Shown piece after piece: positions 6,037-63,380 of a stretch of DNA of 64,000 bases. The position numbers were made by a program, and so were the translations under genes. Origin of the DNA: Macrolepiota albuminosa (Eukaryota > Basidiomycota > Agaricomycetes > Agaricales > Agaricaceae). Under the pieces are notes generated by a model that was not told where the DNA came from, ran no database searches, and worked only from the letters and a program-made list of their open reading frames with translations. The stretch's first letter is position 1. Every line of letters begins with the position of its first letter. Where the stretch lies: positions 2,417,826 to 2,481,825 of the forward strand of contig JAMWFC010000116.1 in NCBI GenBank assembly GCA_027475525.1, given 5' to 3'.

Positions 6037-6190
6037 ATGAGATGAAGGTTGGCAAGGAGTCGGAAGCAAAGTACCTTTGAGACCGATTGATTAGTCACGA
6101 GAAGCTCCTAGTAATGAGATGAAGGTTGGCAAGGAGTCGGAAGCAAAGTACCTTTGAGACCGATTGATTAGTCACGAGAAGCTCCTAGTA
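6037..6190. repeat. 77-bp perfect tandem duplication (junction 1)
   Basis: Copies 6037-6113 and 6114-6190 are identical and directly adjacent; identity stops at both outer edges. It covers the 3' end of an unrecognised minus-strand open frame. Confidence 0.97.
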
Positions 6191-6909
6191 GGTTCTTGTA
6201 CGTCTTGAGCTTGTGGTACTTACTGGCCTTGCCGGCCAAAGGCGAACAAAAAGATGCCATTGTTGTCAAAGGCTGGTCCAATTGCAGGCCTCCAGTTAAA
6301 TGCGATAAGATAAGATCGTGATCTAGCAACGACGGAAGTAGCTTTGTGGTGCAGACATACATATCTGCATCCTGTTCACTGTATCCGAGACCGCCGCGGG
6401 TGGTGTACACTCCTAATATCACAAGCCACCTACTTGTCTTCCCATCCAGCGCTTTGGCAATCCCCATTATGTCGCTAGAATGAAACCCGGTGCACCGGCG
6501 TTTTCTTTGCTTATAAAAGAACGCGCTTCTTTCAAGCACCACCTCTCTTCCCCCTTTCCCGTATCATTACCCTGTACTCTTATTATCTATGCCTCAGGTA
6601 CTTTGTCGCGCAACTTCTTGAAATATGGTGTACCTGATACTATTCGTCCAGGCTGAAGCAGTCCAGCTTAGTACTTGCGCTCTCGGGGAATCGCCCCGGC
6701 AGCAGACCGCTGTGTTCATTAACCAGACAAACACCGAGAATTGTCTTCGACGTGAGCTCATGCTTATCAGTTGAATGAGTGCACCTAATGTCTTCTTCCA
6801 AAACCTAGACACTGCAAAGGACTTGACGACTCGGAGACAGCTTGCTCACGACATCCTTCAAGACCTGAATACCATGTAAGGGCTCTTGGTATAGGGCTTA
6901 TGAAACAGT

Positions 6910-7063
6910 CTCACGCATGCATGTTGACAGAGAACGAATTGCCAATGTTTTCGCTGTTCATTGAAAATCGACGTCGATGATATGCCCTCACGCATGCATG
7001 TTGACAGAGAACGAATTGCCAATGTTTTCGCTGTTCATTGAAAATCGACGTCGATGATATGCC
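6910..7063. repeat. 77-bp perfect tandem duplication (junction 2)
   Basis: Copies 6910-6986 and 6987-7063, beginning ctcacgcatgcatgttgac. The site is in DNA without a recognised gene. The unit has no similarity to the neighbouring duplications. Confidence 0.97.
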
Positions 7064-7886
7064 TCGCGCAGATGTAATGTTACAAAACCTTCGTTCGATA
7101 CAATAGCCATCACATTTATTATCTTGATGTAGTTTAGCGTTAACAGTCCTGTCGAGTACTGTATCTCCAATGATAGTGTGTATTTATATTCCGAGACTTT
7201 GCCATTCGTTCGCCAAGTCTCATGTCGGACGATCAGATCACAACCACTTGAACGTTCTGATATCGAATGCATGCCGCCATCCACATTCCACTCGTCATTG
7301 TTCGATGTCTTATTCGGGTTCGTTGTCCCCGTCCCCCCGATACGGTCCATAATTAGCCTTGACGTGATAACGATTTCCCCACCTTGCGTGCACACAAAGG
7401 ATCAATCCCAAGCAGGCAATCTTGCAGGTCAAATAGGAATTGGTGGCAATTTTGACGCGATCTCGGCATGCACACATGTTAACTAACATTGTTATAATGG
7501 ACAGCCATCGCTATCGTATAAAGTTTAGTAGATATAAGTGAATCAGATTCCATACCTCCCGTCAGTACCGATACAACCTCACTGTCCATTTGTCTTCACA
7601 CTTTTTTCTGATGACCGAGCTTCGAGGAATTGCATTACTTTTTTGAGCGCATCTGAGCCCCTATCTCCAGCACAATTAGGAAGTCATACTCCACGAGCAT
7701 AATCCTACAGGATTTGACCGCTCCGAAACCCAACGCAAAGCTTCTGCGATGCGTGGGTAATTCTCGTACCAGTATTCTGGGTCCGTATCAGTATCGGTGG
7801 AGGACGTTATGTTGGTCAAAGCAAACGCTTGATGAATGTCATTGATATGGGGTGTGAAATGGATAAATACAAAAAGAGTGACATTG

Positions 7887-8040
7887 TACGGGGATGAAAA
7901 CGAGTCAATGGTGGTCGTCATGGATAGTCTTCGAAGGGAAAGAGAGCATGAGTATTTCCAGAATACGGGGATGAAAACGAGTCAATGGTGGTCGTCATGG
8001 ATAGTCTTCGAAGGGAAAGAGAGCATGAGTATTTCCAGAA
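7887..8040. repeat. 77-bp perfect tandem duplication (junction 3)
   Basis: Copies 7887-7963 and 7964-8040, beginning tacggggatgaaaacgag. It creates a repeated peptide in chance open frames on both strands, so those frames should not be read as repeat proteins. Confidence 0.97.
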
Positions 8041-9280: not shown

Positions 9281-9434
9281 TTGACGTGGGACTGCGGATC
9301 TTCTCCATTCGAAGTCTAAATCACCGCTGGTAGAGGACTGGTCAGCACTCATGGCGTTTGACGTGGGACTGCGGATCTTCTCCATTCGAAGTCTAAATCA
9401 CCGCTGGTAGAGGACTGGTCAGCACTCATGGCGT
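9281..9434. repeat. 77-bp perfect tandem duplication (junction 4)
   Basis: Copies 9281-9357 and 9358-9434, beginning ttgacgtgggactgcgg. It separates two possible minus-strand coding pieces (a Ser-rich piece above, a Cys-containing piece below) and would break any gene joining them. Confidence 0.97.
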
Positions 9435-10113: not shown

Positions 10114-10267
10114 GGAAAACCATGTTCATGGACAGCTGCATTGAGATGCAAAAGGAATGGAAAATAATGAGCCCGAAGAGCACAGAGAATGGAAAACCAT
10201 GTTCATGGACAGCTGCATTGAGATGCAAAAGGAATGGAAAATAATGAGCCCGAAGAGCACAGAGAAT
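10114..10267. repeat. 77-bp perfect tandem duplication (junction 5)
   Basis: Copies 10114-10190 and 10191-10267, beginning ggaaaaccatgttcatgg. It lies inside the possible minus-strand Cys-containing open frame at 10126-10506. Confidence 0.97.
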
Positions 10268-10494
10268 AGGAAGTAAGAGAGACAAGGTGCAGGAAAGAAC
10301 GTGAAATAGACACTCGACGAACCAGTTAGACTACCTGTCCCATTAGAACAAAGATCGTTACAATACGTGAAGCGGTCACTCAGAGTGGAGCAGGCTCTGG
10401 TACTGCCAGTCATTTCCATAGCGGGAACCCAACCGCTGATGAAACACGTGATAAAGGATACTCTATTACTTGAAAGCATTGGACAAGTGAAGTG

Positions 10495-10648
10495 AGGAAC
10501 CAACAATTAATTAAGCCTGGGAGACGTATCTTCCGAATAGTCTAATCTGAACCAAGTCGGTATTGACTTCCAGGAACCAACAATTAATTAAGCCTGGGAG
10601 ACGTATCTTCCGAATAGTCTAATCTGAACCAAGTCGGTATTGACTTCC
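10495..10648. repeat. 77-bp tandem duplication over a BTB gene stop codon (junction 6)
   Basis: Copies 10495-10571 and 10572-10648; one further base matches by chance. Both copies hold the end of the BTB gene, including its stop. On the minus strand the upper copy is read first, so the protein ends correctly and the lower copy is a spurious partial exon. Confidence 0.96.
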
Positions 10649-11905
10649 ATATCTTCTCCCTCTCTCTTGCTGCCCAGGCCTCCAAGGACTTCGCACAGGC
10701 CTTGCACTCAGAAAATTCAGCGCTTTTCAATTGTCCTAGCTCTTCTGCCACATAGAGGGGATCATAACACCCCCTTTCGCGATCGATAAGATAGTGCTGA
10801 GTGGCCAAGGAAACGAGCTCCGAACAATCCTTGCGGCAAGCAGCGGCAGACACACATACGGCGGTTTGGGACGCTTTGCGAAAGTGTGCTGGGTTGAGTT
10901 GAGCCGATCGAACGCTTTGAGTGCTCCCCATAGCTGTTATAAGAGAGGTAATGGCATGCTGGCTCGCCTCTTTACCAAGACAAAGCCTCTTCAGGTCTGC
11001 ATTTGAGAGGGTTGAAGAAGTTGGTGGTAGGGGCCAGTGAACTTCTTCAGTCGGTTCGAATATATGGCTGAACGAATAGCGAGAAAGATCATAGAAAGCG
11101 GCGGGCAAAAGAGACGGTGCATCAACTTCTCGTGCAAGATTTATAACAGCCTAAATAAGCGTCAATGATATACCAAGCGAAAGGATAAAGAACTTGACAG
11201 ACGATTGGATGAGGATAAGGGTGACTACTATTGGCCAGGTCAGTCTCGTGTATACGTGCGAGATCTTCCCTTGCGTCCCATTCCTTGAGGCTGGTTGGCC
11301 AAGCCTTGTTGAGGTGAGTCAATGCCTTGGCACGCAATGAATCAAAACAATATTTCGTAGATAACCGAAGAACGCCGGATACGACGCGGTAATCTTCCTG
11401 GTCATTATTGCCAAATATCCTGCCGCGACAATTAGAAGTACACTGAGAAAACATTCTTGCCGACATACAGTCCATCATAGACCGCGGTTAAGAGATTTCC
11501 AACGTCCTCAGCAGTGTCATGTAGATCAACAATAGGAAGTTTTTCTATATCATCCTGCAGTCCTTGGTTCGATATCACGTCGGTACTACTTGTTTGAGGC
11601 TGTGGCATAGAGAACATGTCTCTGAAGAACGTAGAATGGCGCTCAAGCACTGACATGTGGACTTTAAAAAGTGTCCTTTCCGCCCGACAGATAAGACTGC
11701 CATCGTGGAACCATATATCCGCGTGGTGAGTGTACTGTGACACGAGCGCCTTGTCAACCTTATCGGAGACACTGATTGCAGATGCAGAGACGTGGTTTAT
11801 TGGGGAAGACGTCGGTCGTGGATTCGGAGTACCTTGTCGCGTAATCCGAAGGACAGAAGAAAACCGCGCCGAAATAGAATCTGAGTCTCGACACTGCGAA
11901 CTCAT
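10584..11905 (-). CDS. BTB/POZ-domain protein of the agaric expanded family
   Basis: A BTB (POZ) protein; the domain mediates protein-protein contacts and often recruits cullin-3 ligases, but the partner here is unknown. Predicted exons from the start are 11905-11469, 11419-11203 and 11150-10584, joining in frame to 406 residues. The BTB core begins near residue 60 (HHADIWFHDGSLICR), followed by LFKVHMSVLERHS and the later helix VVSGVLRLSTKY. The C-terminal half is typical of the large BTB family in mushroom genomes, with a Cys-rich stretch (AAACRKDCSEL). The first donor (GTATGT at 11468) was chosen because it gives YDGL joined to IFGNND. The gene ends 88 bases from the neighbouring dihydroorotate dehydrogenase stop, and both lie on the minus strand. 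Domain call is firm, cellular role open. Confidence 0.87.
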
Positions 11906-11993
11906 GTCTCAGACCACCAACATTTACATCCAGGAAGTACATCAACGTGATGATATAAAGATCTAATCTTATCAACTTATCAACAATTCTAAG

Positions 11994-13962: not shown

Positions 13963-14116
13963 AAATAAAGGGACAAAGACGTTCTGAGGTTGTATTAGCT
14001 TATCAATGAATTTATTTAGCTGCCAACCTTACCAACTCTAAATAAAGGGACAAAGACGTTCTGAGGTTGTATTAGCTTATCAATGAATTTATTTAGCTGC
14101 CAACCTTACCAACTCT
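13963..14116. repeat. 77-bp tandem duplication (junction 7)
   Basis: Copies 13963-14039 and 14040-14116, period 77; identity continues three bases further by chance. It lies in the pyrD/KAP123 spacer. Confidence 0.95.
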
Positions 14117-14218
14117 AAAGCCTAGGTTAACCCAAGGCCAAAGATCTTGTAGAAACCAGCAAAGACCCTCATCCGACTAGCGATAAAACAACAGATTAAT
14201 GTGCTGAAAACTCTGAGG

Positions 14219-14372
14219 CCAAGTATCGTTAATGTCCGGCATAATCCATAATCAGCTGCTGACTGGCCATGTGGGCTGTGGGTTGAAGGTCCAAACCAAG
14301 TATCGTTAATGTCCGGCATAATCCATAATCAGCTGCTGACTGGCCATGTGGGCTGTGGGTTGAAGGTCCAAA
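14219..14372. repeat. 77-bp perfect tandem duplication (junction 8)
   Basis: Copies 14219-14295 and 14296-14372, beginning ccaagtatcgttaatgtcc. It lies about 140 bp upstream of the KAP123 start codon, so promoter distances in this scaffold are inflated. Confidence 0.97.
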
Positions 14373-14511: not shown

Positions 14512-17500
14512 ATGGATGTAAGCATAGCATTATGCTTGATCGTTCGGCATGGCGCCCAGTAACTTAATACCTTTCTTCATAGCCGACCTTTATCCAAAAT
14601 CTACACAATCTGCTTGTCCAGACAGTATCTCCCGATACCAACAGTGTCAAAGCTGTGTGTGCGATCGTTGACCAATAAATGCTCATTTCGATCTGAATAT
14701 TTGGTTCTACCTCTGTAGGCAACCGCGCAATTGAATGCAGACTTCTACAAGACCCCGGCATGTATACCCGCCCTTGCTAGTATCCTGGCAAGCTCACCAG
14801 AACAACCTGTATGTCGCGTCCAAATTGTCTTGATCTCTTATTACAACGTGTCTAGGTTCGACAACTTGCTGCCGTAGAGCTGCGGAAGCGAGTATCGCAA
14901 AACAGTGGTAATCTGTGGATATCACTTCCCCAAAACGAGCGCGAAGAAATAAAATCAAAACTTCCGGAACTGATCTTGGCTGAGGTTGAGTCAGTCTATT
15001 GCTTTACATGACCCATTTACAAGAATCGTTCCTAATCGCAACTCATATCTAGTAATCTCGTTCGCCATTCTGCGGCAAGGGTCGTCGCAGCTATCGCTAC
15101 AATCGTTCCTAATCGCAACTCATATCTAGTAATCTCGTTCGCCATTCTGCGGCAAGGGTCGTCGCAGCTATCGCTACAATCGAGATACCTCTTGGAACAT
15201 GGGGCCAACTTCTACCTTTCCTTCACCAGACTTGCACGTCACCACAAGTATCTCATCGTGAAGTCGGCATATACATCCTTTTCACTGTACTTGAAAATAT
15301 AGTCGAAGGATTTCAAGAACACCTTCAAAGCTTTTTCAAACTTTTTGAGCAATTGTTGGTTGATCCTATCAGCATTGATGTCCGGATCACGACTGTTAGG
15401 TACAGTCGCGAGAACCTTTTCGGGCGCTTCATTATTCACGATTTTGCAGAGCTCTCGGTGTTATAGCTCAATACGTTGACTCTGATGATAAAGATGATCT
15501 CGTATATTGTTTTCTTTCCCGTCATTTATCGACGATTCTGACTTACCTTTAGAAATCATTCCAAGCTCTTCTACCCGCCATGATCCAAGTCATTGGACAA
15601 TGTGTTGAAACTGGCAATGAGAATGGTGCAAGACAACTATTCGATGTATTGGAGACACTTCTAATTCTTGTATGTATCCGGACTCTTGTCCACGAATCAA
15701 ACTTATTTGATGCTATAGGAAGTGCCGATTCTCGGGAGACATATTCCTGAACTCGCACACTTCCTTCTTCAATGTGGAGGTAATAGGAATTTTGAAGGCG
15801 AGCTTCGTGTTCTCGCTCTCAATGCCCTCAACTGGACCGTACAATAGTTCGTGACCAGTTTGAGTTCTATCATACTGTAGGCTAACATCAATTACAGCAA
15901 AAAATCCAAGATTCAGAGTAACAATCTTGCTCCTGCTATCCTTGAGGGTCTTATGCCCATTGCTACCGAAGAAGAACCTGAAGACTTGGATGATGATGCT
16001 CCTTCTCGTGTGAGTTTTTGTTGGTTTCCCGAATTTGTTGAATTTGATTAATATACCTCACCGTTATACAGTCTGCCCTCCGTATCATTGATGGTCTATC
16101 GACCAACCTGCCTCCTACACAGGTATTCCCCGCTCTCCGCAATCTCATTCTTCAATACTTCGGCTCGCCTAATCCACAAAACCGCCGTGGCGCTATGCTC
16201 GCGCTCGGTGTTAGTGTTGAAGGTTGCAGCGAGTATATGACTCCCCTCATGAATGAAGTCTGGCCTATCATTGAGGCTGGTCTGGTTGATGGTGATACCT
16301 CGGTCAGGAAAGCCTCTTGTGTGGCCGTCAGCTGTCTTTGTGAGTGGCTCGAAGATGAGTGTGCTGCTAAACATGCCGTTCTTATTCCTGTGTGTTGTTT
16401 TGTTCATTCCTTGTCAAATGTAAACTAACCTTTCGTATTCCAGCGCATCATGGATCTCATGAACAACGCAGAGACCCAACGATCGGCTTGCACTGCGCTT
16501 GATGCCCTCCTTGAAATCCTCCAGGACGTCATCGACCAATATCTACCTCTTATCATGGAACGACTCGGAGGTCTGCTCGAAACCGCCCCTCTCCCTGTCA
16601 AGGCTGTTGTTACTGGCGCCATTGGCAGCGCTGCTCATGCCTCCAAGTCGGGTTTCCTTCCTTACTTCCAACCGACCATGGCTCACATTCAGCACTTCCT
16701 TGTTTTGACTGGTGAGGGGGAGGAGATCGAACTCCGTGGAATTACCATGGACGCCATTGGCACATTCGCTGAGGCAGTTGGAAAGGATGTCTTCCGTCCT
16801 TACTTCCCAGATATGATGAAACAGGCGTTCCAGGGTATCGAGATGGGCAGTGCAAGGCTCAGAGAGTGTAGTTTCCTCTTCTTCGGTGTAATGGCTCGTG
16901 TTTTCGGGGAAGAATTTGCACAATATCTGCCAAACGTCGTTCCGGCGTTATTGGCTAGTTGCAAGCAGGACGAGCATGGAGATGAATCTGTCTCTCGTAA
17001 GTCTTTCTTGTTTTATCTACTGACGTCTTCGATTGATGTTTTACATAGTCTCCGTCGCTGACGCTTCCTCTGCCTTCGCTTCCGGCTCGTCTCCTGCCAA
17101 CGCCGTCACCGCGGGCGATGCTGACACTTCCGTCGAACTCGAGGATGTCAATCTTGATAAGCTGATCGATGTCAACAGCGCAATCGCCGTCGAGAAAGAA
17201 ATAGCTGCGGATACCATTGGAACGTTGTTCGCCGCTTGCAAGGCTCACTTTTTCCCCTATGTTGAACAGTCTGCCTTGGAACTCGTTGCGCTCCTACCTC
17301 ATTACTATGAGGGTATCAGAAAGAGTGCAACTGACTCGCTTTTGGAAATCGTCAGGACTTTCTACGATCTGAGTGAACCACAGGAATGGAAACCCGGCGC
17401 GAACGTGGTAAGTTCAGCTTTTCAACTACCTCGTGATCCAACATCTGACTGTTCACTGTGAGGTTGTTCCACTCAGTCCTAGTGTCAAGGAACTTGTTGG

Positions 17501-19015: not shown

Positions 19016-20944
19016 ATGCTCTTCCCTCTTTTGACCTTCCTTTCTCTGGCTCTCTCTGCGTCCTCTCGTTTAGCCGTAACGCAGGCTCTACGTGAACAAC
19101 TCCCTCTCATCGCACGCGTCGACAAACCCTATCTGTGGTCGCTGTCTCCTCGCACCTTTACCTCAACCAACGGTCCTATCACATACTCTACGTCGACGCT
19201 TCCACCATGGCTCTCCTTCGATCTTGGAACGCTGACCTTTCACGGGACACCTGCCGACAACGATCAAGGATATCCGAAGATTACCGTCATAGCTACAGAT
19301 TCTTCAGGCGCACTGTCAGAAAGCTTCACCTTAGTTGTAACCAAGAATACTGAACCTATTATGAACTTGCCTATCTCTCAACAATTCTCATCGCCAGCAC
19401 CATTTCTGTCCTCGGTTTTCATCTTGTCATCTAAGACCAGTATACCAACGGACAGTCCTGCGCTGCGAATACCTCCGAAATGGTCTTTCAGTATTGGCTT
19501 TCAGTACGAGACGTTCTTGTCTTCGACTAAACTGTACTATGACGCTCGGCAAAGAGATGGTTCTCCCCTTCCCAAATGGATGAGATTCAACCCCAAGGCA
19601 ATAACACTTAATGGTATCACTCCTGAGGAGAACGAAATCTCTCAACCTGCGATAATATCACTTTCGCTATATGCTTCGGATCTGGAAGGTTACTCTGCTT
19701 CCTCGCTACCCTTTGCCTTGGTGGTTTCGGAACACGAATTGTCAATTAGTACTTCCCCTGTGATATTGAACATTACGGCAGAAACATCCTTCAGTATCAG
19801 TCTTGTCTCACAGCTTGGCATGTTGGGCGTCCTTGTAGATGGAAGACCGTTAGAGAGGAGCGAAATCAAGACCTTGATGATCGATACGTCTAAATATGAC
19901 TGGCTGAAATACGACCTTGGAAGCTGGACACTCTCTGGTGATCCAGCAAACGCTATGCTCGGACAGACTTATCAATTGCTCGTGAACCTTGAGGCATTTA
20001 ACCAAACTCTTCGCGTACCTCTGTGTCTGGAAATTGTTTCTTCTTACTTTTTAGCTGCAATTCTCCCACCAATCCAGGGTATTCCAGGAGAAATGATAGA
20101 ATACGATCTTCAACGCGATTTTTCCGACGTCACAAAACATGAAGATGATGAAGTAACCGCTACATTTGATCCTCCAAAAGCTGGAGAGTGGTTGTTGTAT
20201 CATCATGAATCTGGGAAATTGTCGGGCACTGTTCCTTCTGATTTCAAAGAACAACAAATCGTCATCACGTTCACAGCATACTCTTCCGTCACGCATTCGA
20301 ATTCTCGCGCTAGACTCTCTGTAGTATTCGCTCCGCCAGAACACACAAAGAAAGGTTTTCATCCCTTAGGGTCGTCAGCAGCAACTCACACGAGGCTGGT
20401 CTTAGGTTTAGGAGTTACATTTGGTGCCGTTGGCGGGCTGTGCTTACTAGGAGGACTCCTTGCTATTTTCCGCCGCTGTGCTAGAGTAGAAGACACTGCA
20501 ATCGGTGGAGAGGAAGGGCGAAATGTATGGACCGAACAGGACAAGCGGTGGTATGGCGCTGGACGAGACAATGCATGGACGGACCATGATCCCAATTTCA
20601 GTGAGAAGCCCACGCTTGCTCTGGGCCAACCAATCAATACGCCTGAAGGTCCAAACCAACGCACATATGGAGATCTTGGATTGGGTCTACGACGAGTTTC
20701 TGAGCGAAGCGGTTCTCAAGGGCACAAGCCGAGCCCGGGTGTCATGAGCAAACGCGAGTTTTTTGAGAGGCTCAGGGAGACGGTTCGTGTCGTAAGTGAC
20801 AAAGTACAAGGCCGCAAAGTTTCCCGAGAACGCCCTGTGATTGGGAGGCCTATCTTGCCGCAGCAGAATGAAATTACAATGATCAACTCGTCATCGACTT
20901 TCTTTGAACAAGCAGGCCTCCCAGCCATCCCGGAAGCACGATAA
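19016..20944 (+). CDS. AXL2: AXL2-like cadherin/dystroglycan-fold single-pass membrane protein
   Basis: A 642-residue open frame without introns, resembling the axial-budding landmark Axl2. A signal peptide (MLFPLLTFLSLALSASS) leads into a large extracellular part with repeated dystroglycan-type cadherin modules; typical motifs are WLSFDLGTLTFHGTPADND near residue 63 and the related WLKYDLGSWTLSGDP near residue 300. A single membrane span lies at about residues 461-485 (GLGVTFGAVGGLCLLGGLLA), followed by a basic cytosolic tail containing SKREFFERLRETVRVVSDKV. The frame stops at 20942-20944 inside a 77-bp duplication. An open frame one step off continues for about 165 residues and looks like the rest of the tail, so this CDS may be short by a frameshift. 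In yeast, Axl2 anchors Bud4/septin-linked polarity; the role here is inferred. Confidence 0.85.
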   Translation: MLFPLLTFLSLALSASSRLAVTQALREQLPLIARVDKPYLWSLSPRTFTSTNGPITYSTSTLPPWLSFDLGTLTFHGTPADNDQGYPKITVIATDSSGALSESFTLVVTKNTEPIMNLPISQQFSSPAPFLSSVFILSSKTSIPTDSPALRIPPKWSFSIGFQYETFLSSTKLYYDARQRDGSPLPKWMRFNPKAITLNGITPEENEISQPAIISLSLYASDLEGYSASSLPFALVVSEHELSISTSPVILNITAETSFSISLVSQLGMLGVLVDGRPLERSEIKTLMIDTSKYDWLKYDLGSWTLSGDPANAMLGQTYQLLVNLEAFNQTLRVPLCLEIVSSYFLAAILPPIQGIPGEMIEYDLQRDFSDVTKHEDDEVTATFDPPKAGEWLLYHHESGKLSGTVPSDFKEQQIVITFTAYSSVTHSNSRARLSVVFAPPEHTKKGFHPLGSSAATHTRLVLGLGVTFGAVGGLCLLGGLLAIFRRCARVEDTAIGGEEGRNVWTEQDKRWYGAGRDNAWTDHDPNFSEKPTLALGQPINTPEGPNQRTYGDLGLGLRRVSERSGSQGHKPSPGVMSKREFFERLRETVRVVSDKVQGRKVSRERPVIGRPILPQQNEITMINSSSTFFEQAGLPAIPEAR

Positions 20945-21073
20945 TGACCAACTCACCATCTACATCAACTGCTGAACATTCGATACCGAGGCGACGCCCA
21001 GCCATCCCGGAAGCACGATAATGACCAACTCACCATCTACATCAACTGCTGAACATTCGATACCGAGGCGACG
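20920..21073. repeat. 77-bp perfect tandem duplication at the AXL2 tail (junction 10)
   Basis: Copies 20920-20996 and 20997-21073, beginning cccagccatcccggaagc. Both contain the TAA that ends the AXL2-like frame, so removing one copy does not by itself reopen the frame. Confidence 0.97.
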
Positions 21074-21518
21074 GGCTGACTTTGCGCCGCCCAGGTCACC
21101 TGCGCAGGTGCACACGCGACTGTCACGGCAGTTCTCCTCCGGGTCGTCAGATTCAAATGCTTCCGAAAGGAGACATGCGTCAGAAGCTACCGTGCAGACG
21201 GCGTCAAAGGCAATGAGTTTGCACAGTGGAAGAAGCGCGAGTGGGAAGTCGTTCATCACCGAGCCACCGATAGCAGCAGGGGCTCGACCTCGGCTTGTTC
21301 CTTTCACAAGCGCGTCGCGTGTACCCGCTCCCCATCGTCCGTCGTCACCTAGCCTTGAATACGACAACAAATTGGCTAACAAGAGGGTCAACAGCCAGTC
21401 TGCGAAAGTATGGAGACGGGAACCAAGAGGTAAATTAGAGAAAGGAAGCAGCAGTGACGAACTCGAAATGGGACTTCATTATGTTCAGAGCTTGGGTGCA
21501 GATCCTCAAACAAGTTAA
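21021..21518 (+). CDS. Likely out-of-frame C-terminal tail of the AXL2-like protein
   Basis: An open frame of 165 residues that begins in the second copy of a 77-bp duplication and stops at 21516-21518. Composition is Ser/Arg/Pro-rich, like a cytosolic tail (FAPPRSPAQVHTRLSRQFSS), ending with SSSDELEMGLHYVQSLGA, which reads like a conserved terminus. It is one frame step away from the AXL2-like frame that stops at 20944, and I found no GT-AG intron joining the two in frame. I infer one gene split by a one-base error or by a real frameshift. It could instead be a separate short gene or chance coding. Confidence 0.45.
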   Translation: MTNSPSTSTAEHSIPRRRADFAPPRSPAQVHTRLSRQFSSGSSDSNASERRHASEATVQTASKAMSLHSGRSASGKSFITEPPIAAGARPRLVPFTSASRVPAPHRPSSPSLEYDNKLANKRVNSQSAKVWRREPRGKLEKGSSSDELEMGLHYVQSLGADPQTS

Positions 21519-21908
21519 TTTGCGCACGTGGAAGGTGGAAGGTGGAGATGGATTTATGTGATGATTTACTGTATTTTTAGCCATCCTAACACTACAACTA
21601 CTCATACTATTCAATTACTATGCATGTACCACAAGAATCCACAATGCTAACTCCATACCTTTCGGAATGATTATGATAATTCGTTCAGTAGTGCGAAAGT
21701 TCTTTCAGAAGTTTTATGTAGTAACAATCCACTGTTCGTATCTAATGAGCGTCTCATATGCTCTGGATGTGTATCTGTGAAGTCCGTCACATCCGTAGTA
21801 ACAATCCACTGTTCGTATCTAATGAGCGTCTCATATGCTCTGGATGTGTATCTGTGAAGTCCGTCACATCCTTCCACCTCCCAAAAACAGGGATCGTAAT
21901 CCGTGATT
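21519..21908. other. Convergent 3' spacer with a 77-bp duplication
   Basis: This 390-bp AT-rich spacer separates the 3' ends of the AXL2-like gene (plus) and the dynein light chain gene (minus). Apart from the tandem duplication at 21718-21871 nothing was recognised. Confidence 0.6.
21718..21871. repeat. 77-bp perfect tandem duplication (junction 11)
   Basis: Copies 21718-21794 and 21795-21871, beginning gtagtaacaatccactg. It lies 38 bp beyond the dynein light chain stop, in the presumed 3' untranslated region. Confidence 0.97.
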
Positions 21909-22351: not shown

Positions 22352-23785
22352 AAAAATTGGATCTAAAGGGCAATAAGCGGCTGAAAGGTTATCTGGAGTA
22401 AAGACAGACGTTTAAGAGTGTCGGTAGTGGTGGAAAGAGACCAAGGACGTGTGTTGGTTCAACTTATAAGTTGCGGCACGTGCCAGCAGCACATGGGCGT
22501 CGAATCCCATCCACCTCACCTCAATGCCTCATTCGTATTCCTGTTCACTCTAACTCCATGCCGTGTTCCTCACGTTTCAGACACATCTACATTTCCAGCC
22601 ACATGTCCTATCCGATCTGTCTTCTACGTATATTAGTGCCCTCGTGCATCCAGTTCCACTATCAGTCTATCTAGTTCTAACTCTTTAGAGGCGCAGAAAC
22701 ACCCTCTGCCTACCCCAGTCAACTCCATAGGCGGTGTATTTGTACATCATTGTCGGTCCAGGATCTCTGACTAGCCGGGTGCTCGTGTTCACGTCCACAT
22801 GGTCAGAGCCCACCTCTATGCCACCCACGCCATGCAATTCACACCTTTGCCTCCTGCACACTTTTGTCTATTTTCAATTAGCCAGCAACAGCATACGTTG
22901 TTGCATCAGTTTAGGCTCAGCCATCTTGCTGCTGCATGTGGATGTCCAATGATCTTCCCAAAGACATGCACATGTTTGTCCATATGTGTCTTATAGAAAT
23001 CTCGTGTTTCTGGTTGCGCCTTGCTGCTAAAACCGCTTTCTTGTCCGACCAGCCTTGTCTCCAATGCTGGTAATTAAATGTGTGATATCTACTTGATGAG
23101 GCCCTTGACGCCACCAAATATCACCGGATCTCTAACAAACCTGGATTACATAGCCTGCTCCCCTGGCTTTGTTCTTATGTTTAATCTCATTCACATTCAT
23201 TTGTTACTATATGTCAGGTGGCATGGAAGTTGCATGGACTTCCTTCCGATACGGCATGGTTTCTATATATGAGCAGCTCAAGCTTGCACTTTCGTTCGAT
23301 GTGTAACAACAATTCGCCGTGCAGACTTTGGCCGATCTTGAGGAATGGGGGATACACAGCTGACACATATGTCGTGACTTGAACCTTGTAAGATGATGTA
23401 ACGGAACTTTGCAAGAATATCAAAACGTGTAAGTATCGGTCTTCGCGGTGTAATGTCGGTGATATATACTCGTGAGCTTGGTAGAATGCTATAAATTTTC
23501 GCTGGTGAAAATATATGACGTCGACCTTCATGCCACATCCAATAAGCCGTTTTTAAGACATTAACTTGGTTATGGTGCGTTAAGAATAAATGGAGTACGT
23601 CAAAAGTGATGTGTGAGTCGAATTTGAGGCTAGGCAACTTCGAGATTTTCTGGGCCGCATGGTCACCATGAACACCCGAATTAATTTGAATTTAGTCCGT
23701 TCACACTCTCAGTCAAATCATGCACATCATGACTCATTCCTCAGCCATCGTTGTAGATGAACACACATTAAACTTGTGAGAGAAT
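22352..23785. other. 1.4-kb intergenic region upstream of DYN2
   Basis: It holds the DYN2 promoter and the 3' flank of the GIN4/HSL1-type kinase gene. Open frames here are short, without recognisable motifs, and vary in frame, so I call no gene. No repeats or RNA genes were seen. Confidence 0.55.
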
Positions 23786-26246: not shown

Positions 26247-26569
26247 GAAGTCCAGGAAAGAAAAGGGTTATGTGGCTGACCTTAGCATACAAAGTGAGCT
26301 TGTGTTCAGAGGTAGAAGTGGAGGTCATCAGGAAGTAAACAAGTGTAAAGAACGCGTCGTTTCCGGCGAAATGAGTCACGAGTAACCGCCATTGGCCACA
26401 TTAATATTGTGGTAAACAAGTGTAAAGAACGCGTCGTTTCCGGCGAAATGAGTCACGAGTAACCGCCATTGGCCACATTAATATTGTGACAAAGTCGAGG
26501 TGATTCACCAAGGGCTTGTACATCGGTCCACAATTCTTTCATTCCTCATTGATTACTGTTTCCTTCAAA
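26247..26569. promoter_or_regulatory. Divergent spacer between the septin kinase and ligase IV genes
   Basis: Both flanking genes are read away from this 320-bp region, so it should hold both promoters and probably the missing first exon of ligase IV. Nearly half of it is taken up by a 77-bp tandem duplication. The only ATG near the ligase gene in this interval is inside the duplicated unit and is soon followed by a stop. Confidence 0.55.
26335..26488. repeat. 77-bp perfect tandem duplication (junction 12)
   Basis: Copies 26335-26411 and 26412-26488, beginning gtaaacaagtgtaaagaac. It may lie over the ligase IV 5' end and explain why the start codon cannot be placed. Confidence 0.97.
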
Positions 26570-29500
26570 GATGATGCAACCGACCCCGGCCCCTCCTCTG
26601 TACCCAACTCTCCCAGATCCCAGACAGCGCAGGGTGAGGACGATGAACAACTGAAGCCACCCCCACAGAACATGGGAAGTGCCCCGTTTGGAGTTTTAGT
26701 TGGGCTCTTTGAGAAGCTGTCAAATGAAAGGAAGCATGAAAGGAAGAAGAAGCTTATAGACGCTTGGTTTAATGTATGACCAGGAAAACTCACAAGTCTG
26801 TTAACTCTAAGAGCTCGCTTCAGCACTGGCGCGATGAGAAGGGATTTGACTTATATCCCGTTCTGCGTCTCATACTTCCACAGGTGCGCTTCAAGTCAAT
26901 TGGGAAAACAGGCGTTGGACTGACTATGTGGCGTCAAAATGATGCAGAAAGATCGTGAACGTGCCGTATATGGGCTGAAGGAAAAGAACCTTGCAAAGAC
27001 ATACATCAAGTTAATTCCATTAGGGATGAAAGACCCGGATGCCATACGCCTGTTAAATTGGAAAAGACCAACAGAGAGGGACGTATGTATCGCTTAGCAT
27101 GTACTAAGGTCTACGCTGAACAGCCTGTGGCGTTTACTCACTTTCAGAAAACATCTGGAGACTTTCCCACTGTCCTCTATGAAGTTGTTAGCAAACGTTC
27201 ATCTGTCATTGAAAGCTCGCTTTCGATCGACGAGCTGAATGGTTTATTGGACACATTGGCACAGAATATGGGGAAACAGTAAAGTTCTGCCTTCCGATTC
27301 TTCCTATTTCTTATAGTAATCTAGAGATGCCCAATCTAAAATACTACAGAAAGTATACAATCGTTCCACACCCACGGAACAACGGTGGATTGTCAGGATC
27401 ATTTTGAAAGGTGTGACGATAATTCATCATCCTTAAAGTCTGCGAAACTCACCCTTGACGTAGACATGAACATATCTGTAAAAGAAACGACTGTGTTTGC
27501 GGTATTCCATCCAGATGCGCAAGATCTTTACAATACTTGTTCAGATCTCAAGAAGGTTGCATGGGAACTGTGGGACCAAACTCATCGACTAAATGCCCAA
27601 GTGAGTCATATTACTTTGCTTGATCTGCGCGAAAGGATTTGTCATTGATCTATCGCTCTAGGATAAAACAGTCCAGCTTTTCCATGCGTTCACTCCTATG
27701 CTATGTAAACGACCGACCAGAAAGATCGAGGACACAGTCAAGGAGATGGGTGGCTCTGAGTTTTTCATCGAAGAAAAGCTCGACGGTGAGAGGATGCAAC
27801 TACACAAGAGAGGGAACGAGTTTTTTTATTGCTCAAGGTTGGAGTCTCCCAAAAGCTCGACGGTGAGAGGATGCAACTACACAAGAGAGGGAACGAGTTT
27901 TTTTATTGCTCAAGGTTGGAGTCTCCCATGTGTGCTTATGAGTTCTCACCCGGCATTTCAGAAAGGGAAAAGATTATACTTACCTTTACGGTAAACACAT
28001 TGGTACTGGCAGTTTGACTCCATTCATCGACAAAGCATTTGATCCAAGGATTGATGAGTCCGTATCAATTCCATGTTTACGAACCAATCTATCAACCCCT
28101 CTCATAGTATCATTCTTGATGGCGAAATGTTGGTGTGGGATCCAGTATCTGAACGTAACCTTCCCTTTGGAACGTTGAAGACAGCGGCACTGGGTATGTT
28201 TCCCAATTTCTTTGGTTGTTATTCTATAATTATATAATACTCCATCGCTCTCAGACAGGTCAAAAAAAGAGCATAACCCTCGCCCATGCTGTAAGTTATA
28301 CGTTCTCTGTCTGGTTTTGAATCTCAAATTTTGCGAAGTCAAGGTCTTCGATCTCTTGTATCTCAATGGCCAGTCACTTCTTGAGAGGTCAACGGCGTTC
28401 AGAAAGAAGAACTTGCACAGCTGCCTGATCTCTTGTATCTCAATGGCCAGTCACTTCTTGAGAGGTCAACGGCGTTCAGAAAGAAGAACTTGCACAGCTG
28501 CCTCAAAGAAATCACGGGACGCATTGAATTTGCGTGGAATACAAAGGGAAGACAGCGAAGGACATTAGAGAACGGATGGATGAAGTTATGGCCGCAAGAG
28601 GAGAAGGTCTAGTCATCAAACATCCTTTAGCGAAGTATGTGCTCAATGGGAGAAACATGGACTGGATCAAGGTATGCCACTCCTTTTTTTCTGACCGTCA
28701 GTCAGTTCATTCTTGGCAATTAGGTTAAACCGGAGTACATGGTAGGTAGAAATAGTGACATTCAAAATACATATCCGCTTATCTTTTACTCGAGGACAAT
28801 ATGGGAGAGACAGTTGATGTCCTCGTTGTTAGTAGGTTGAGGACCTCGTCACTCATTTTTATAGGCTAATACTACCTCCAGGTGCCAATTATGGGTCCGG
28901 CAAACGAGGTGGTGGAGTGTCAACATTGATTTGTGCAGTCCTTGATGATCGACGACCTTCTGAAGATGATGATGAACCAAAGTACTGTTCGTTCATTGCT
29001 TCGAACGGTCTGATTCATGCTCGTTTCTTTCTGCTAGATACAGTACATTTGTTCGTATCGGTTCTGGCTTGTCATTCGCAGATTATGTGTGGGTTCGTGA
29101 GAAGCCATGGAAGACTTGGGACCCCAAACGTCCTCCGCAGTTCCTATTGACTTCAAAGCGGTCTCATGAAGATAAGGGCGATGTTTATCTAGAACCCGAG
29201 GAGTTGGTCACAGTTACAACAAGTAAACTATTGCTAATCTCGACTTTAGTTCGTTCATTCTCAAGGTAAAAGCTGCGGAAATTGTACCTTCAGGTGGGCA
29301 TTGCGCGTGTGTTCCGCGCAATTAATTTTGAGAATTGTCTACAGATCAATATGATATGGGTTTCACAATGCGTTTCCCGCGAGCGCTCGCAATCCGTGAT
29401 GATCTTAGCATTGCAGATTGCATGACTGCAACAGGTATTGGTTCAATGGACTCTCCATTCGGAAAATTGTGGTAACAGGCTTGACAGAAATATTGGAAAG

Positions 29501-42300: not shown

Positions 42301-45300
42301 CTATCGCGATTCATTTGCGAGCCATTGTAATCCAACAGGCATCGATACCGGCGGGTGTTGTACCGCAAGGAGTCCCACCGATTTCAACGAAGGAAGTGAC
42401 TGTTGCCCTTCTACAAACACATTACTTCCCGCACTTCTTGACTGGCTTTGTCCTCCATTTACAGTCACATTTTCCCCTACTCGTCCCGCACTAACGCCGT
42501 CCAATGGGATGAAATTAGCATCAGCGTCACGGCCTAACCGTCGTAGTGGTGTATGAGTGGTATGACCATGCCCATGTAGATGCAAAGCAGTCGCTTCCGC
42601 TTCTCTTTCCCGCTTCACGCCATTCCCGCTCTGGCCTGTCCCCATGCCGTCTCCTGACCCTGCATGATTACGGCCACCGATATCCCGATCAGAATGAGAA
42701 GAATTCATATGAGACTGTGACTGAACACCGCGACTGTAGCCGCTAGTACTTGATTTGGAGGTATCAGTGGTATGCATACGATCCTCAAGTGACCGACCGA
42801 CAGTCACAGACGTCGGAGATGGGGAACCTGACCTATGGCTGAAGGAGTCATGCTGGTGCGAGGATGGCCGTGGCCCTGACGTTGGTGGGTTTCGAAGGTC
42901 AGGCAGACGTCGATGCTGGGGAAGCGGCGGTTGGATCAGTTGTTCTTGTGGATGGTGTTGTTTTGACGGAGGTAAGCGACCCCCGTAACTATGCGTGGAT
43001 GAAGAGGAATAGACTCGGTGCCGTTCCAGCGCAAGTTCACGTATCCGAGTGCCCCACTCCTCTTCATAAGTTGAACACCAATTGCGTATCTGAAGGTCAT
43101 CTCGTTGACAATATTTGATTAATGGCTGTGTCGAATTTAGTAAACGAGAAAAAAACAATTATGACCGAAAATCTCACCCATAGTGCTGCGGCCACTAGAT
43201 CGGGGTACAGTTGAGCTTGAAATGATTTTAAGTGAACGAAACGTCACGCACTGAGGATACTGTTCTTTACTCGGTCGCCTAACATTTCCATAATTAGGTC
43301 TAATCTCTTCAAAGCCCCCACAGGTTCGCTCTTTTGTTCCATGTGAAGTTGCTGCCGAGCCTATTCGCAAGGTTCAGTCAACAGAAGAAGAGGGCTAGAA
43401 GTAAGAGGGATAGGAACATAAAAATAGAATTTACATAGTTTAGAGCAAGTGCCGATGACGCGTGGAAGATATGCATGCAACACCAGCACCAAGCACCGCC
43501 GTTCGAGCTGGTCTCGAACATTGATTGTTGAACTTGCAGACTTTGCTCTGAGAAACGGAGATGATCCGGTAGAGTGCTAGCCCATGACTGTTGGGGTGTC
43601 ACGATCAATCAATAACAGGATAAAAAAAGAGAAGGGAGTACGTACTTCCATTAAACGTTGGGCTTCCAATATGGCTGCAGGCGCGTTCGGGTTTGAATCA
43701 GAATCTGCAGGAGTTAGTATGACTTGGAACGCAACTTGACAATGTGTTCTACTCACCGGCGAGCTCGTCGATTGCCGATTCCACCTTGGCATAAATTGTG
43801 ACCACGCGGATGAGATGCCCGAACTCGGAGGAGTATTGCATCCTTACCGCTGGAAGATGCAGATATTCTAATTTTTTGGCAATTGTCAGCATGGTTTTTG
43901 GCAATTGCATGGAAGCCATGTACCTGGGAGCGTGGAATGCACACCGAGTTCAAAGGTGGTCTCGTCAACAGGCAGGCGGAGACGTCTTCCGGACTCCGAA
44001 AGTCCTTGCATAGGTTGCTTAAAATAAATCCATGCTAAGTTGTCTAAAAAGTGAATGATCCAAAACATGCGGCGCACGGCTTCTCGTTCGATCGAAGCCT
44101 GGATAAATGCGGGAGAAGGGACAGGCGTGAGAGTGGGGTGATCGTGTTGATACACGTTCAGCGATTCAATAAGCTGCATCGCTAAATCTGCCAGGTTGGG
44201 GTTCCGTCAGTGGGGTGATCGTGTTGATACACGTTCAGCGATTCAATAAGCTGCATCGCTAAATCTGCCAGGTTGGGGTTCCGTCGAAAATAAATCAGCG
44301 TAACAGAGCAAAAAAAACACACCATGATACCGTGAATCCCATTGCACGTTCCCATCCATGGTCTTAATATCGTGAAACTGCAAAAGACAGAGGGCTTGGG
44401 CAGTTGCAAGGTTGCGTTCACATATAAGCCGTCCCGCGCCATCGAACATCAAGGATTGTGCTTCTTGGGCAAATGGTTGTCCTGCGAAACGGGAGGGAGT
44501 CGTACGAAGGTGGGGCTGCTTTGATAAAGGCGCTGCAAGAGCACACACGGCATGCAAAAGGTACGAAGGAACGCGATTATGCGCGAGATTGGCAGTAAAG
44601 GTTGGTTTGTGTATAATCAAACGTGCTGGGTGGCAGTGTGTGAAAAAAACTGGAAAAGAACGTAACCAAGAATGTAAAATGCGACACAGCAAGACACGCA
44701 CGATTCGTTAGTTCGCGAGTAAGAGCATGATCTAGTTCCATCGGCGAAGGTCTGTCAATGGGTGCTGCTGGGGAAGGGTCCACAATAGGTATTGGAATCG
44801 AGGATGCAGAAATATCCTCCGTCGGAACGGCAGTTCCACGCTCATTTCTAAAGCGTTTGCGTGGTATGCTGATTTGCGTAGAGGTTTGACTGTTGTCGCA
44901 CTCTCTTTCAACGGATAAAAGGAGAGAATTTGAAGAAGTAGACGGTTGGGAAGAACTATCGAGTCGCTCGGGTTTGAAGGGCCGCGGTGCTGGCACAGGC
45001 CGCCCAGTTGCGTCTGTATATGTGCACGGCTTGACTGCATAATAGCTAGACAGAGTAAGAGTGATACAGAGAGTAAAGTTTGACAACGAACCAGTTGCTG
45101 CAAGGAGCTAGAAGTTATGTGAGACGGGTGGAAGGTGAAAATAGAAAGTTTTTTTGCAGACCTGTCCCATCGCAACGTCGCTTACTTTTGTGGCAGGCGT
45201 CACAAGCCTGAAAGGTGGTCAAAAGAGGATAAGAGAAAAAGCGGCGAGGGAACCTTTGCCAGGCGTTTTCGCTTGGGGGCCTTGATGGAATTTTGGGGCT

Positions 45301-52185: not shown

Positions 52186-54786
<2,601 letters not shown>

Positions 54787-57501: not shown

Positions 57502-59060
57502 ACGCAGCCTTAGGTGTGTTCGTTTGGCAGACATCTTGGCTATGATTACTCATGAATGACAGATGTAATGTATCCCCTGTATCAACTTGTACACTTTCTC
57601 GAGTTAGTCAACGTTTAGACAAGAAATCCGATGTCTTTGAGCCACTTGTCTGAGTGATGTGGGCAGTCTGGATGATATCATGAAGGCCTGGATTTTCAAA
57701 GACAACCCACTAATGCGTATCCTACTTAAAAGAGTCACTTCAATACACCCTCACCCTCGCCTCCACTCTCGAGCATGCAGCTTCCCTTGCGTATCAACAA
57801 ACATCACAAGACTGATTTTCATCTGGACGACGTAGATCTCGCATCCGCCATCGACCTCACTAGAATCCAAGTTCTACTCCATCGTCAAAGGCAAAGCCGT
57901 TATCGCTGATCTCGTGGCGAAGTACGGCTCGTCTGATTTTATCGTGTGGCTTGATTTACTGAATGTGGCGCCCGACGACCAAGATTTCGGAGTTCGTGCT
58001 TGTCCAAGGGTACATGCGCCATGAACGTACATCTTCGCATGGGGTAACCCACTCGTGTCGGACCCAGCTGCAATACTTGCACTGGCGTTTAAGGCACGAG
58101 CAAGGCCTACCCCTGATTTGGACTTGGTCTCAAGTCCGTGCCCTATACCACACTTAGACTAATGATTAGACATTTATTGTATCTAACAACTTTCCGCCTC
58201 GACATATTCTGTTCGGCCTCATGTGCTCGCTCGCCGTATTAACAAATTTCACCATTGTCCACTAGTAATTCTCTATCTACTGAGTGAAGACTGTCGAAGC
58301 GAGGAGGAAGAACGGGTGCCGGGTTCTCTCGATAGAGGTCAGAGATGTAAAGGAGAGTTTCGGATGTTCCGCGCGGCGCAGTAAGGAAAGAGACGGCGTT
58401 TCTCATTTGCCAGGAGTAATTGTAGATTGAGGTGAGGATAGGTAGGCCGCAGGCTGTACGGGAGGAAAGTATATAGGTGTTTGAAGTTGCAAAAAGGAAG
58501 GTACCTTGCCGGCGTGTCGAGCGAGCCAGTTCCTGCAATGTTGAAAGTCTAGCCACGGTTCCAAAGTTGCCTGCGAATTTGGAACATTTTCAGAAAACGC
58601 AAATAAAGGATGAGGCATAACCATCCAAGCCACGGTTCCAAAGTTGCCTGCGAATTTGGAACATTTTCAGAAAACGCAAATAAAGGATGAGGCATAACCA
58701 TCCATGAGGCAATCTAGACACCGGACCTAGACTTTCTCCATTCTATAATACCTTGTTCGACGGCTTCTTGTCTTCAGGAGTCCATTCGTCCGCTACGACT
58801 TCCGATACATGTACCTCCGCTCTCTGCCCACGCCTCAAGTTCCTTTTCAAATCTTTACCGTGCTCCTCGGATCATGTTCCTTACCTTCGGCGTACGGACC
58901 CCGCGAGTTCGATGACATGCGCGGGATCAATCATATTCTCATAGATACAGTGTACGACACCACTCAAACGGATGGTGCACAAGAACCTCTTCGAGATCAC
59001 GATCAAAACGACTGAGGCTATCCCGGGTTCTGCTTCCGATCCATATTCCCGCTACTTTAG
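57502..59060. other. 1.6-kb region with gene-like relics
   Basis: No complete gene could be built. On the plus strand about 57740-58155 reads in pieces like a former gene, with DLVAKYGSSDFIVWLDLLNV and YIFAWGNPLVSDPAA in different frames. On the minus strand 58633-58239 carries a gene-like stretch (SWQMRNAVSFLTAPRGTS, ending VDRELLVDNGEIC and a stop). A further plus-strand frame at 58741-59013 has SAYGPREFDDMRGINHIL. I recognise none of these families. A 77-bp duplication lies inside. They may be decayed duplicates, or a fast-evolving gene disturbed by the assembly. Confidence 0.4.
58551..58704. repeat. 77-bp perfect tandem duplication (junction 18)
   Basis: Copies 58551-58627 and 58628-58704, beginning agccacggttccaaagttgc. 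It covers part of the minus-strand gene-like stretch and duplicates its possible start region. Confidence 0.97.
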
Positions 59061-60404: not shown

Positions 60405-60558
60405 AGAATGCTGGGTAGTCTCCTCTACACAGTAAATAGATGTGGAGGGCATCATTTCCATGGCAGTTATCACAGGGTTGAAGAATGCTGGGTAGTCTCC
60501 TCTACACAGTAAATAGATGTGGAGGGCATCATTTCCATGGCAGTTATCACAGGGTTGA
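60405..60558. repeat. 77-bp perfect tandem duplication (junction 19)
   Basis: Copies 60405-60481 and 60482-60558, beginning agaatgctgggtagtctcc, inside the decayed retroelement. Confidence 0.97.
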
Positions 60559-61055
60559 TTGAGATTGAAGATTCTACAAACTCTTTTGGCAATAACGATC
60601 TTATTGCCAGAGAGCCGAGTGTGAGGAGCTTGCCATCAAATGAGGTATTGTTGACTGATGCCCTGTGGCCCAGTTATCTTTCACATAAAAGACACACTGA
60701 GGAATTATCCCAAAAAAGAATCAGATTTGACTTTTGAATAGCACACTGTGAAGTAATGTTGACCACATATAAAGATTTTGAGACTTTGTTCTCAAAAAAT
60801 CTCCTTCAATCCTCAGCCAAGGCCTGATGGGATTGAAGAATAATATCAACATGCAATGTATATTTGAGCCAGTTGAAAACAACATTAGCCATGAGAATTT
60901 CCAAGCAGGCTTCTTGTTCAAATCTGTACCAGAGTCGAGTACAAATTCTCAAAATCTTGAACTTGCTTGAAAAAATTAAGATGCATTTCATATTCAATCA
61001 CATAGTTAGTTGACAAAGTAGGCCCATTAGTTTGGCCTGACACAGTGGATGTCTT

Positions 61056-61208
61056 GCCCAGCAATTTCAGTGCCTCCAGAAGATTGTGAGAAGCTTCAAG
61101 AAAACATAAAGGGCTGAGGCAGAAGTGAGTATGCCCAGCAATTTCAGTGCCTCCAGAAGATTGTGAGAAGCTTCAAGAAAACATAAAGGGCTGAGGCAGA
61201 AGTGAGTA
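61056..61208. repeat. About 77-bp tandem duplication, possibly one base different (junction 20)
   Basis: First copy 61056-61132; the second starts at 61133 and seems to lack one A of the agcaattt run, making it 76 bases. This is the only duplication of the set that may not be exact. It lies inside the decayed retroelement. Confidence 0.85.
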
Positions 61209-62071
61209 TTGTCATTGCCCCATACAAAGATCATCTTGGCTATGTCTAAGAGAAGAACCTTCCCAAGGGTTTGTCGTCAGCACAGAAAAGACATATCACC
61301 TTGGTATGCATGACTTGATTATTAACTAAATCTATATGATGGTTAGTAAAGAAATGGAGGGGAGGCAGAAAATGATTACAAATATTGAGAAGATAAATAG
61401 TTGGAATAACGATGTCTCTGGCTTTCCCGAAAGATCGCTCAGTAGGATTGATCATCTCCATACTTCCCAATAGTCGTGCCTGGATGGAACCATCTAGATC
61501 CTTTCCCCTTTCCTTTAAGGCCTGTCATTCATCCTCAGCTTGTCTCTTGAGGTGGACCCAGGAAACGACAATTTCACGTAAATGGAAAGGGACCCAGAAG
61601 AGAACACAAATCTTCGCTATTGACGAGATCTTGAATCTCATCCTCAGAATAGAAATAAGTAGGCTTAAGGGACGGTCTGACATCCAAATCGGCAGGACGA
61701 GGGGATGGAGCAGCCTTAGCATTGACTATTTTAGAGATACTGGTGTTATTATAGTCTTCAATTGTCGCGTTCTTGCGAATTCGAACCGCAAGTGGTAACT
61801 GGAAGCGGCTGATGCCATCAGAGAGATTGATCCTTTGTCAAAGTCGAAATCGTCCGGAATAGGACCCGGGATACCGGCATTGAGGAGCAGGACGACGTCG
61901 GATGGAACGGTGGCTGAAGATTGGGCGCTAGCAGCACCTGATGAGACAGTTTAAGAAGGAGGGTCGACATCAAACGTCGGCACAGACGGAGTAAGAAGAC
62001 GTCGGGCATCTGAATAGCCAGCGATAGTAGATTGGGACATAGGTACAAGCTGAGATGACGACAACTTAATT

Positions 62072-62234
62072 TGAGTAAAATGGAAATTTTTATATCAAGT
62101 ATGAGGATGAGACGATAATATGTCTCATCCTGCACCCGAGCCCCTAAACTAGATTTGCCCGAGAAGGAAAGTTGGAAAGTACCCGCCTTATCTCACGCTG
62201 GGCTAGCCGGCAAGGCACATAACCTCAGCTTACA
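62072..62234 (-). repeat. Right terminal inverted repeat of the 59-62 kb element
   Basis: Partner of the left repeat in opposite orientation, ending at cctcagcttaca (62223-62234). The inner block tatgtctcatcctgcacc with atgaggatgagac repeats the small palindrome of the left end. Confidence 0.75.
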
Positions 62235-63380
62235 GTAAGTCCTCGATTGCAAAATGACCGTCACACTAAAGGAGCTGTAACAAAATATCAAGTTATATTT
62301 TATTTTTGGAGACCCCTTCGTTGTGAAGCATTGATTGCAGAGCAAACATAAAGATCTGGAAACTTGAAAGCGCAATGACAATACTGTTGTGGACCTGCCT
62401 ATTGAGCTGTGCTTTACTGTTTTCCTTCCTTCGAAAAAAGCCCACAGTGTCAAAATGCTTCCGGAAGTATGTCTGTCATGGGAGCAAATTCCATCCTCGC
62501 GAGAATTTTCTCAAGTATTGAAAACTACATGCGAAAGAACAAGTACTTAATAGGCAATTTATGGACACCAAACAAAGGACTAATGAAACAATGTGAACCA
62601 TGCTCTAGGTGTAATTTAGTACACTTTTTAGATGAGGAAGGTTCTGGTTCTGCGCACATGTGGTATATCTGTGGCAATGCTCTAGGTGTAATTTAGTACA
62701 CTTTTTAGATGAGGAAGGTTCTGGTTCTGCGCACATGTGGTATATCTGTGGCATGTGCGTGATTATGCAAGGAATAGTCATATAGGTTCATAAATAGTCT
62801 GAAGTCATTCAGTGGCGCTGCCCAAAAGTCCTGATTTTATCCGACATTTATGTCGCACACGCTAGCCGTGATGTATACGTGTTGTAGATATAACCGCAAT
62901 GATCATGTGGAAAAATTCATAACGCTAACTTTGTGAAGGAACGTTATCGGACTTGAAAGTTTTGACAAAGTGCTTTCCAAGTCCGATCACCAAGTTATCA
63001 ACCATCATCTTGGAATTACATGATATGTAATATTTTCTCGCACGAACTTGCTTAGAGATGTCATTTCGCCGAAATATGTATTCCTTTGGCTTGGGTCTCA
63101 TGGCCTCTATCAAGCAATAGACTCTTGATCTGGTTCTGAAGCCGAACCAGCCGTACTGATGGTTAATCGGCTTCGAGATGCGGCTTCAAACATCGGAAAT
63201 TTCGGTGCGGGAAGTCTTTGGAAAGGTATTAAGGACCGTACATGGGCGGAGACGTCTCTGGCACTTCGGGAAATCTTGGAAAACTTGAAATGTCTTCACG
63301 CCCCGGCGACCCCCGACGTCCCTCAAGCACTATGACTCTTCTGTCTTCAGGAAATTACAGCGGCGCGCTCCACAATTGTA
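62235..63380. other. 1.1-kb region without a recognised gene
   Basis: AT-rich DNA with short, motif-free open frames and one 77-bp duplication. I see no similarity to the retroelement next to it. It probably includes the upstream part of the small dsRNA-binding gene at its right end. Confidence 0.45.
62600..62753. repeat. 77-bp perfect tandem duplication (junction 21)
   Basis: Copies 62600-62676 and 62677-62753, beginning atgctctaggtgtaatttag, in DNA without a recognised gene. Confidence 0.97.

Follow-up and report, generated by a model that had tools for sequence, protein, structure and literature searches.

Why should one stretch of a fungal genome carry the same kind of duplication 21 times, always with a period of exactly 77 bases, in units that have no sequence in common? 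The stretch is 64,000 nucleotides of Macrolepiota albuminosa DNA (G000:C107:2417826-2481825, with C107 being the scaffold that holds it; hereafter the window means this whole stretch) from assembly GCA_027475525.1, which comprises 100,137,612 bases in 129 contigs. Judged from the sequence, the answer is almost certainly that the 77-base pairs are an assembly artefact, in which shared contig ends were kept at joins, and are not a feature of the fungus. An earlier, sequence-only reading of the window had proposed an artefact, and the proposal is supported by the exclusivity of period 77, the single state of the unit at 10 of 11 sites in a second version of the locus, unit edges that fall on differences between the versions, a protein segment in an AXL2-like gene, and staggered pairs in copies of a transposon.

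A single period in the window

We scanned the window for exact tandem pairs at each period from 20 to 399 and found 21 pairs, every one with a period of 77, and no further exact period in that range. Their coordinates span 6037 to 62753, so the 21 back-to-back duplications that the sequence-only reading described over that interval are real features of the text; its remark that one of them might differ by a base was mistaken, as all 21 pairs are exact (zero mismatches). Tandem Repeats Finder likewise reported period 77 at all 21 sites, with 2.0 to 2.1 copies per site. Apart from these it reported only two sub-period rows at 6037 and two 12-base arrays with imperfect copies, at 45691 and 45732. 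Rfam and tRNA scans of the window returned no matches.

The length of the unit is constant. The exact run is 77 bases at 16 of the window sites, 78 at three (10495..10649, 27774..27928 and 61055..61209), 80 at one (13963..14119) and 82 at one (15024..15182). Across 61 distinct units, taken from the window and the other sampled stretches (L001, L002 and L031 excluded), the numbers with 0, 1, 2, 3, 4 and 5 bases beyond 77 were 38, 17, 2, 1, 1 and 2, and chance extension on both sides of an exact unit of 77 bases would give 34.3, 17.2, 6.4, 2.1, 0.7 and 0.2. The observed extension past 77 is thus close to the chance level.

An exact 77-base tandem pair would not be expected to arise by chance in 64 kb. 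Ordinary minisatellites, or a repeat built into the structure of a transposon, are an alternative, and some sites do lie in copies of one repeated element. Such repeats are nevertheless hard to reconcile with there being just two copies per site and with units that are unrelated to one another, as the sequence-only reading had also noted: the 21 window units have no common word of at least 12 bases on either strand. These and further points from the element copies (below) leave this explanation with a negligible probability.

Period 77 elsewhere in the assembly

We extended the search to a sample of 262,598 bases, which combines the window with another 80 kb from its scaffold and 17 further stretches. 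Exact tandem sites with a period above 25 number 59 in this sample, every one of period 77, and the other full-copy exact periods lie only between 15 and 25. The sequence-only reading had named a sharp spike at 77 in a plot of period lengths over the whole assembly as support for its view; a lone spike above period 25 is indeed what appears, with the 262.6-kb sample as its scope rather than the whole assembly. In the sampled stretches outside the window (L001 and L002 excluded), 77 is the only exact period of at least 26, found at 50 sites.

On contigs other than C107, 17 stretches total 116,598 bases; they were not randomly drawn, and nine transposon copies picked by similarity are excluded from them. 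They contain 19 exact and three one-mismatch 77-base pairs, spread over 7 of the 17. With one more in a transposon copy, inexact pairs number four overall, each with one substitution (76/77): L011 2453, L011 2891, L027 325 and L043 639. One-base differences of this kind between units would fit later polishing. The letter N is absent from all sampled stretches outside the window.

That pairs are present in many sampled contigs is also what one would expect if a real biological process were making tandem duplications of a fixed 77 bases. Such a process would leave duplications of many lengths and ages, and neither variety is seen. No site in the window or in the 80 kb of the second version has 55 to 76 matches of 77 (all sites with at least 55 are 77/77), and in the remaining stretches every site with at least 70 matches is 77/77 or 76/77, so there are no older, decayed pairs. 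We therefore reject the biological explanation, and regard it as extremely improbable in light of three further observations set out below: two versions of the locus that differ in carrying the pair, unit edges that coincide with differences between those versions, and a protein segment that is single in all homologues examined.

Two versions of the locus in C107

A 701-base probe from the locus has two identical matches in C107, 183,981 bases apart, which gives a second version against which the window can be compared. Window positions 1-21794 align to it in pieces, at 95 to 100% identity. From 21794 to 64000 there are only two mismatches, at 23075 and 23158, and from 23159 to the end of the window the two versions are letter-identical, 77-base joins included. 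As a two-allele test of this pair, the result is piecewise 95-100% identity on the left, with some differences there looking like errors, and identical text from 23159 onward.

The pairing extends past the window in both directions, at 97.3% identity over the preceding 2 kb and with 1,800 of 1,800 bases identical beyond the window end. It is still seen at 2,320,001 and at 2,350,001-2,350,575 (the latter shifted by 225 bases), and is not seen at 2,380,001 and 2,405,001 when 800-base pieces are compared at that offset, which a larger shift would escape. The second copy therefore spans at least about 2,232,356 to 2,350,575, roughly 118 kb. From these comparisons, the scaffold has the locus at two places some 184 kb apart, probably through contigs or alleles being used twice; the two large versions may be alleles or paralogues.

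A second block of this kind was seen in C114, where sequence from 2,137,223 onward recurs from 2,283,332 onward, the offset staying at 146,109 bases; in the one 2-kb pair compared there, 2,000 of 2,000 bases are identical.

The left part of the window, where the versions can be distinguished, holds 11 of the 21 sites, and at 10 of them the second version carries one unit: 6037..6190, 6910..7063, 7887..8040, 9281..9434, 10495..10649, 13963..14119, 14219..14372, 15024..15182, 20920..21073 and 21718..21871. The exception is 10114..10267, which is doubled in both versions with an offset of about four bases. The same holds in the other direction, in that the second version has four sites of its own in the left stretch; the window has a single unit at three of these, and the fourth (20361 in the second version) is the staggered partner of the 10114 pair. 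Versions that are otherwise 95 to 100% identical thus differ in carrying the pair, which argues against a biological duplication process.

Unit edges and differences between the versions

If the unit is the overlap left by a de Bruijn graph, it is expected to begin or end where assembled versions part. At 9 of the 11 window sites, 10114 (doubled in both) among them, identity between the versions breaks off within one base of the unit on its left side. At 10495 and 20920 the window is one base short at the left edge, and at 6037, 7887 and 13963 it is one base short within one base of that edge; a substitution lies directly to the left of 6910 (at 6909) and of 21718 (at 21717), and a 29-base difference directly to the left of 9281. 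A 1-base difference at 15024 falls within the 5-base slack of that run and was not scored as an edge match. In the second version, a difference lies exactly at the right edge of site 23292, and site 25100 is within two bases of a difference (judged by eye, using the run slack).

As a control, we took positions in window 1-21794, away from the sites, at which the 77-mer has exactly one occurrence in the second version. There are 13,869 such positions. By the same criterion, 45 of them have a difference at the left edge and 48 at the right edge, and 92 qualify when either edge is accepted. The match between unit edges and version differences is again unfavourable to a biological origin.

The preference for one side is an observation in its own right: with differences on the left edge at 9 of 11 sites, the joins mark where the versions rejoin, not where they part.

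An AXL2-like gene with a doubled segment

As 77 is not a multiple of three, a pair inside an exon shifts the reading frame and doubles part of the protein. The sequence-only reading had placed units in exons, introns, promoters and a transposon, and for the genes two placements were checked. The pair at 20920..21073 lies in a coding exon of an AXL2-like (Ig-domain) gene on the forward strand at 19016..21515, and the pair at 26335 is on the upstream side of a GIN4-like kinase gene, just outside the coding region that aligns.

A protein search with the AXL2-like open frame from the window gave a best match at 99% identity, followed by Termitomyces proteins at 75 to 84%, which suggests that the fungus belongs to Termitomyces or is closely related to it. 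We aligned the first ten of the 120 listed homologues to the window and to the second version with tblastn. In the window, all ten are split over two main frames (about 19016-20932 and 20979-21515), and for 8 of the 10 the first unit, read in a third frame, matches a segment of about 26 residues (636-661 of the best homologue) as well. Against the second version, all ten align once and in a single frame, with at least 98% of their length covered. It is the doubled segment of about 26 residues, not the frame break, that is evidence about the pair at 20920. That all 10 homologues have this segment just once speaks against a duplication made in the fungus.

Attribution of the frame break to the 77-base pair alone was considered and rejected, since one base is also missing at the left edge of the unit.

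Copies of a repeated element

A repeated element at L011 has 88 matches in the assembly, and we compared its copy at L011 3000-4000 with nine further copies. The main pieces of these nine show 90 to 97% identity, and most of the nine were chosen because the length of their match suggested a pair. Nine of the ten copies carry tandem sites, 15 in total (14 exact and one 76/77), at staggered positions within the element. The remaining copy, L046, has no pairs, and all 15 sites map to a single unit there. The copies are several percent apart, yet within each pair the units differ by one base at most, so the pairs would not have been inherited with the element. Staggered positions and a copy without any pair also count against a structural repeat of the transposon.

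A different dispersed repeat lies within the window itself. The sequence at 10311-10437 belongs to a repeat family some 130 bases long; of 123 candidates, 38 were scored as matches, at 84 to 91% identity and on many contigs. It is perhaps a SINE-like element; as with the rest of the window, it has no Rfam match.

How the pairs may have arisen

The proposed mechanism has three steps. A de Bruijn graph step would leave neighbouring contigs with an end sequence of exactly 77 bases in common. These contigs would end at branches of the graph, i.e., where alleles, transposon copies, or clean and noisy versions of a sequence part or rejoin. A later step would then set the pieces end to end, without N and with the shared 77 bases kept, so that they become doubled at each join.

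Contig-end overlaps in SPAdes assemblies have a length of k, and 77 is its usual largest k. The graph is therefore likely to have come from SPAdes with a largest k of 77, and the failing step would be scaffolding, path concatenation or gap closing. The sequence-only reading had blamed a scaffolder that joined overlapping contigs without trimming them. Untrimmed shared ends remain the best account of the pairs, and scaffolding is one of two readings of the responsible step, with gap closing fitting as well.

Evidence that fits less well

Several observations weigh against the artefact explanation as stated above, or at least against its simplest form. The first is coverage: 10 of the 17 sampled stretches on other contigs are without any 77-base pair. 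The second concerns the right part of the window, where 10 of the 21 sites are doubled in both versions, in the same text: 26335..26488, 27774..27928, 28350..28503, 35265..35418, 37835..37988 (inside which a 471-aa open frame ends), 44132..44285, 58551..58704, 60405..60558, 61055..61209 and 62600..62753. As the two versions are the same text here, they provide no independent test of the right-hand joins, a situation that fits contigs having been laid down twice. By analogy with the left part, these ten sites probably share the artefact cause of the others. Third, two sites have no difference at hand to account for a branch: 14219 in the window, which has none between the versions within 100 bases leftward, and 24267 in the second version, which has none nearby. 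The fourth concerns the two genes. The AXL2 frame break is shared by the pair and the missing base, each of which shifts the frame, and the site at 26335, with kinase homologues aligned, lies outside the aligned coding region of the GIN4-like gene and so gives no frame test.

The last such observation is the kind of difference found between the versions, which we catalogued over one 22-kb stretch, the part of the window before 21795. There are 58 substitutions, of which 46 are transitions, and this pattern is like that between alleles. Single-base length differences are lopsided, in that the window's version is short of a base 19 times and has one extra base once. Ten of the 19 losses are in homopolymers and seven are at unit edges (the losses at 15028 and 15105 are one event, counted in both units). 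No single-base loss occurs in the 2 kb preceding the window. A bias to single-base losses is typical of long-read error. Clean short reads and two true alleles would not predict it, so the simple two-allele picture is incomplete, and some branches may separate a clean version from a noisy one rather than two true alleles.

This bias is most relevant to a variant of the artefact explanation, whose probability overlaps with that of the artefact as a whole: that the pairs came from gap closing or a graph walk, or from another assembler with a 77-base overlap. In its gap-closing form, a rightward walk would pass through noisy, long-read-like sequence until it met the first 77-base word of the next contig; that word would be kept, and the contig then added whole. 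A rightward walk of this kind would account both for the loss bias and for the left-sidedness of the edges, i.e., for the differences at the left unit edge of 9 of 11 sites and for losses that are far more frequent than gains, cluster at edges and homopolymers, and so resemble long-read sequence. Other details are less favourable to it. Two of the edges are substitutions (6909 and 21717) and one is a 29-base difference, none of which need be noise, and the bias was measured over that single 22-kb stretch, with the 2 kb before it free of single-base losses. On balance, we consider this variant a serious candidate that falls somewhat short of being probable.

What the pairs mean for users of the assembly

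The artefact explanation has no bearing on fungal biology; it bears on the use of assembly GCA_027475525.1. About 1.6 kb of the window (21 x 77 bases) would be false sequence. A crude extrapolation from the 19 exact pairs in the 116.6 kb of non-randomly drawn stretches on other contigs would put the number of joins in 100 Mb at about 16,000, amounting to 1.3 Mb. Exon breaks caused by pairs could be misread as pseudogenes or as allelic loss, and users of the assembly should be warned accordingly. The larger duplications within scaffolds, if they are false too, would give false gene copies.

The artefact is of a known kind and is well supported. Whether its form here has wider significance is a separate matter. 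We found no description of 77-base or k-length tandem pairs at joins in the literature titles and abstract openings covered, which is not proof that they are unpublished. PMC9296850, where overlapping contigs are merged by hand, has no bearing on them. It is conceivable, though we think it rather unlikely, that the pairs reveal a little-noticed pipeline fault, one that doubles a k-mer at unresolved branches and thereby marks the branch points of the graph in N-free scaffolds. If so, equivalent doublings with a different k may be present in further public eukaryotic assemblies, where they would add false frameshifts and split genes. Looking for a spike in the period of exact tandem pairs would be a cheap, read-free check for such doubling.

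Relation to known assembly faults

Two known systems invite comparison. The first is the overlap at contig ends, which arises from the SPAdes process and which Unicycler removes (PMC5481147). The pairs in the window resemble these overlaps in being an exact end sequence common to neighbouring contigs. They differ in what apparently became of it: Unicycler removes the overlaps so that contigs lead directly into their neighbours, whereas here they seem to have been kept inside long, N-free scaffolds.

The second is heterotype false duplication, in which both alleles are placed in one haploid assembly (PMC9516828). The locus of the window, present twice in one scaffold, in versions whose left parts differ by many substitutions, is similar to what is described there. 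The 77-base pairs themselves are a different matter, being far smaller and located at joins, and the letter-identical right part of the locus looks like the result of reused contigs.

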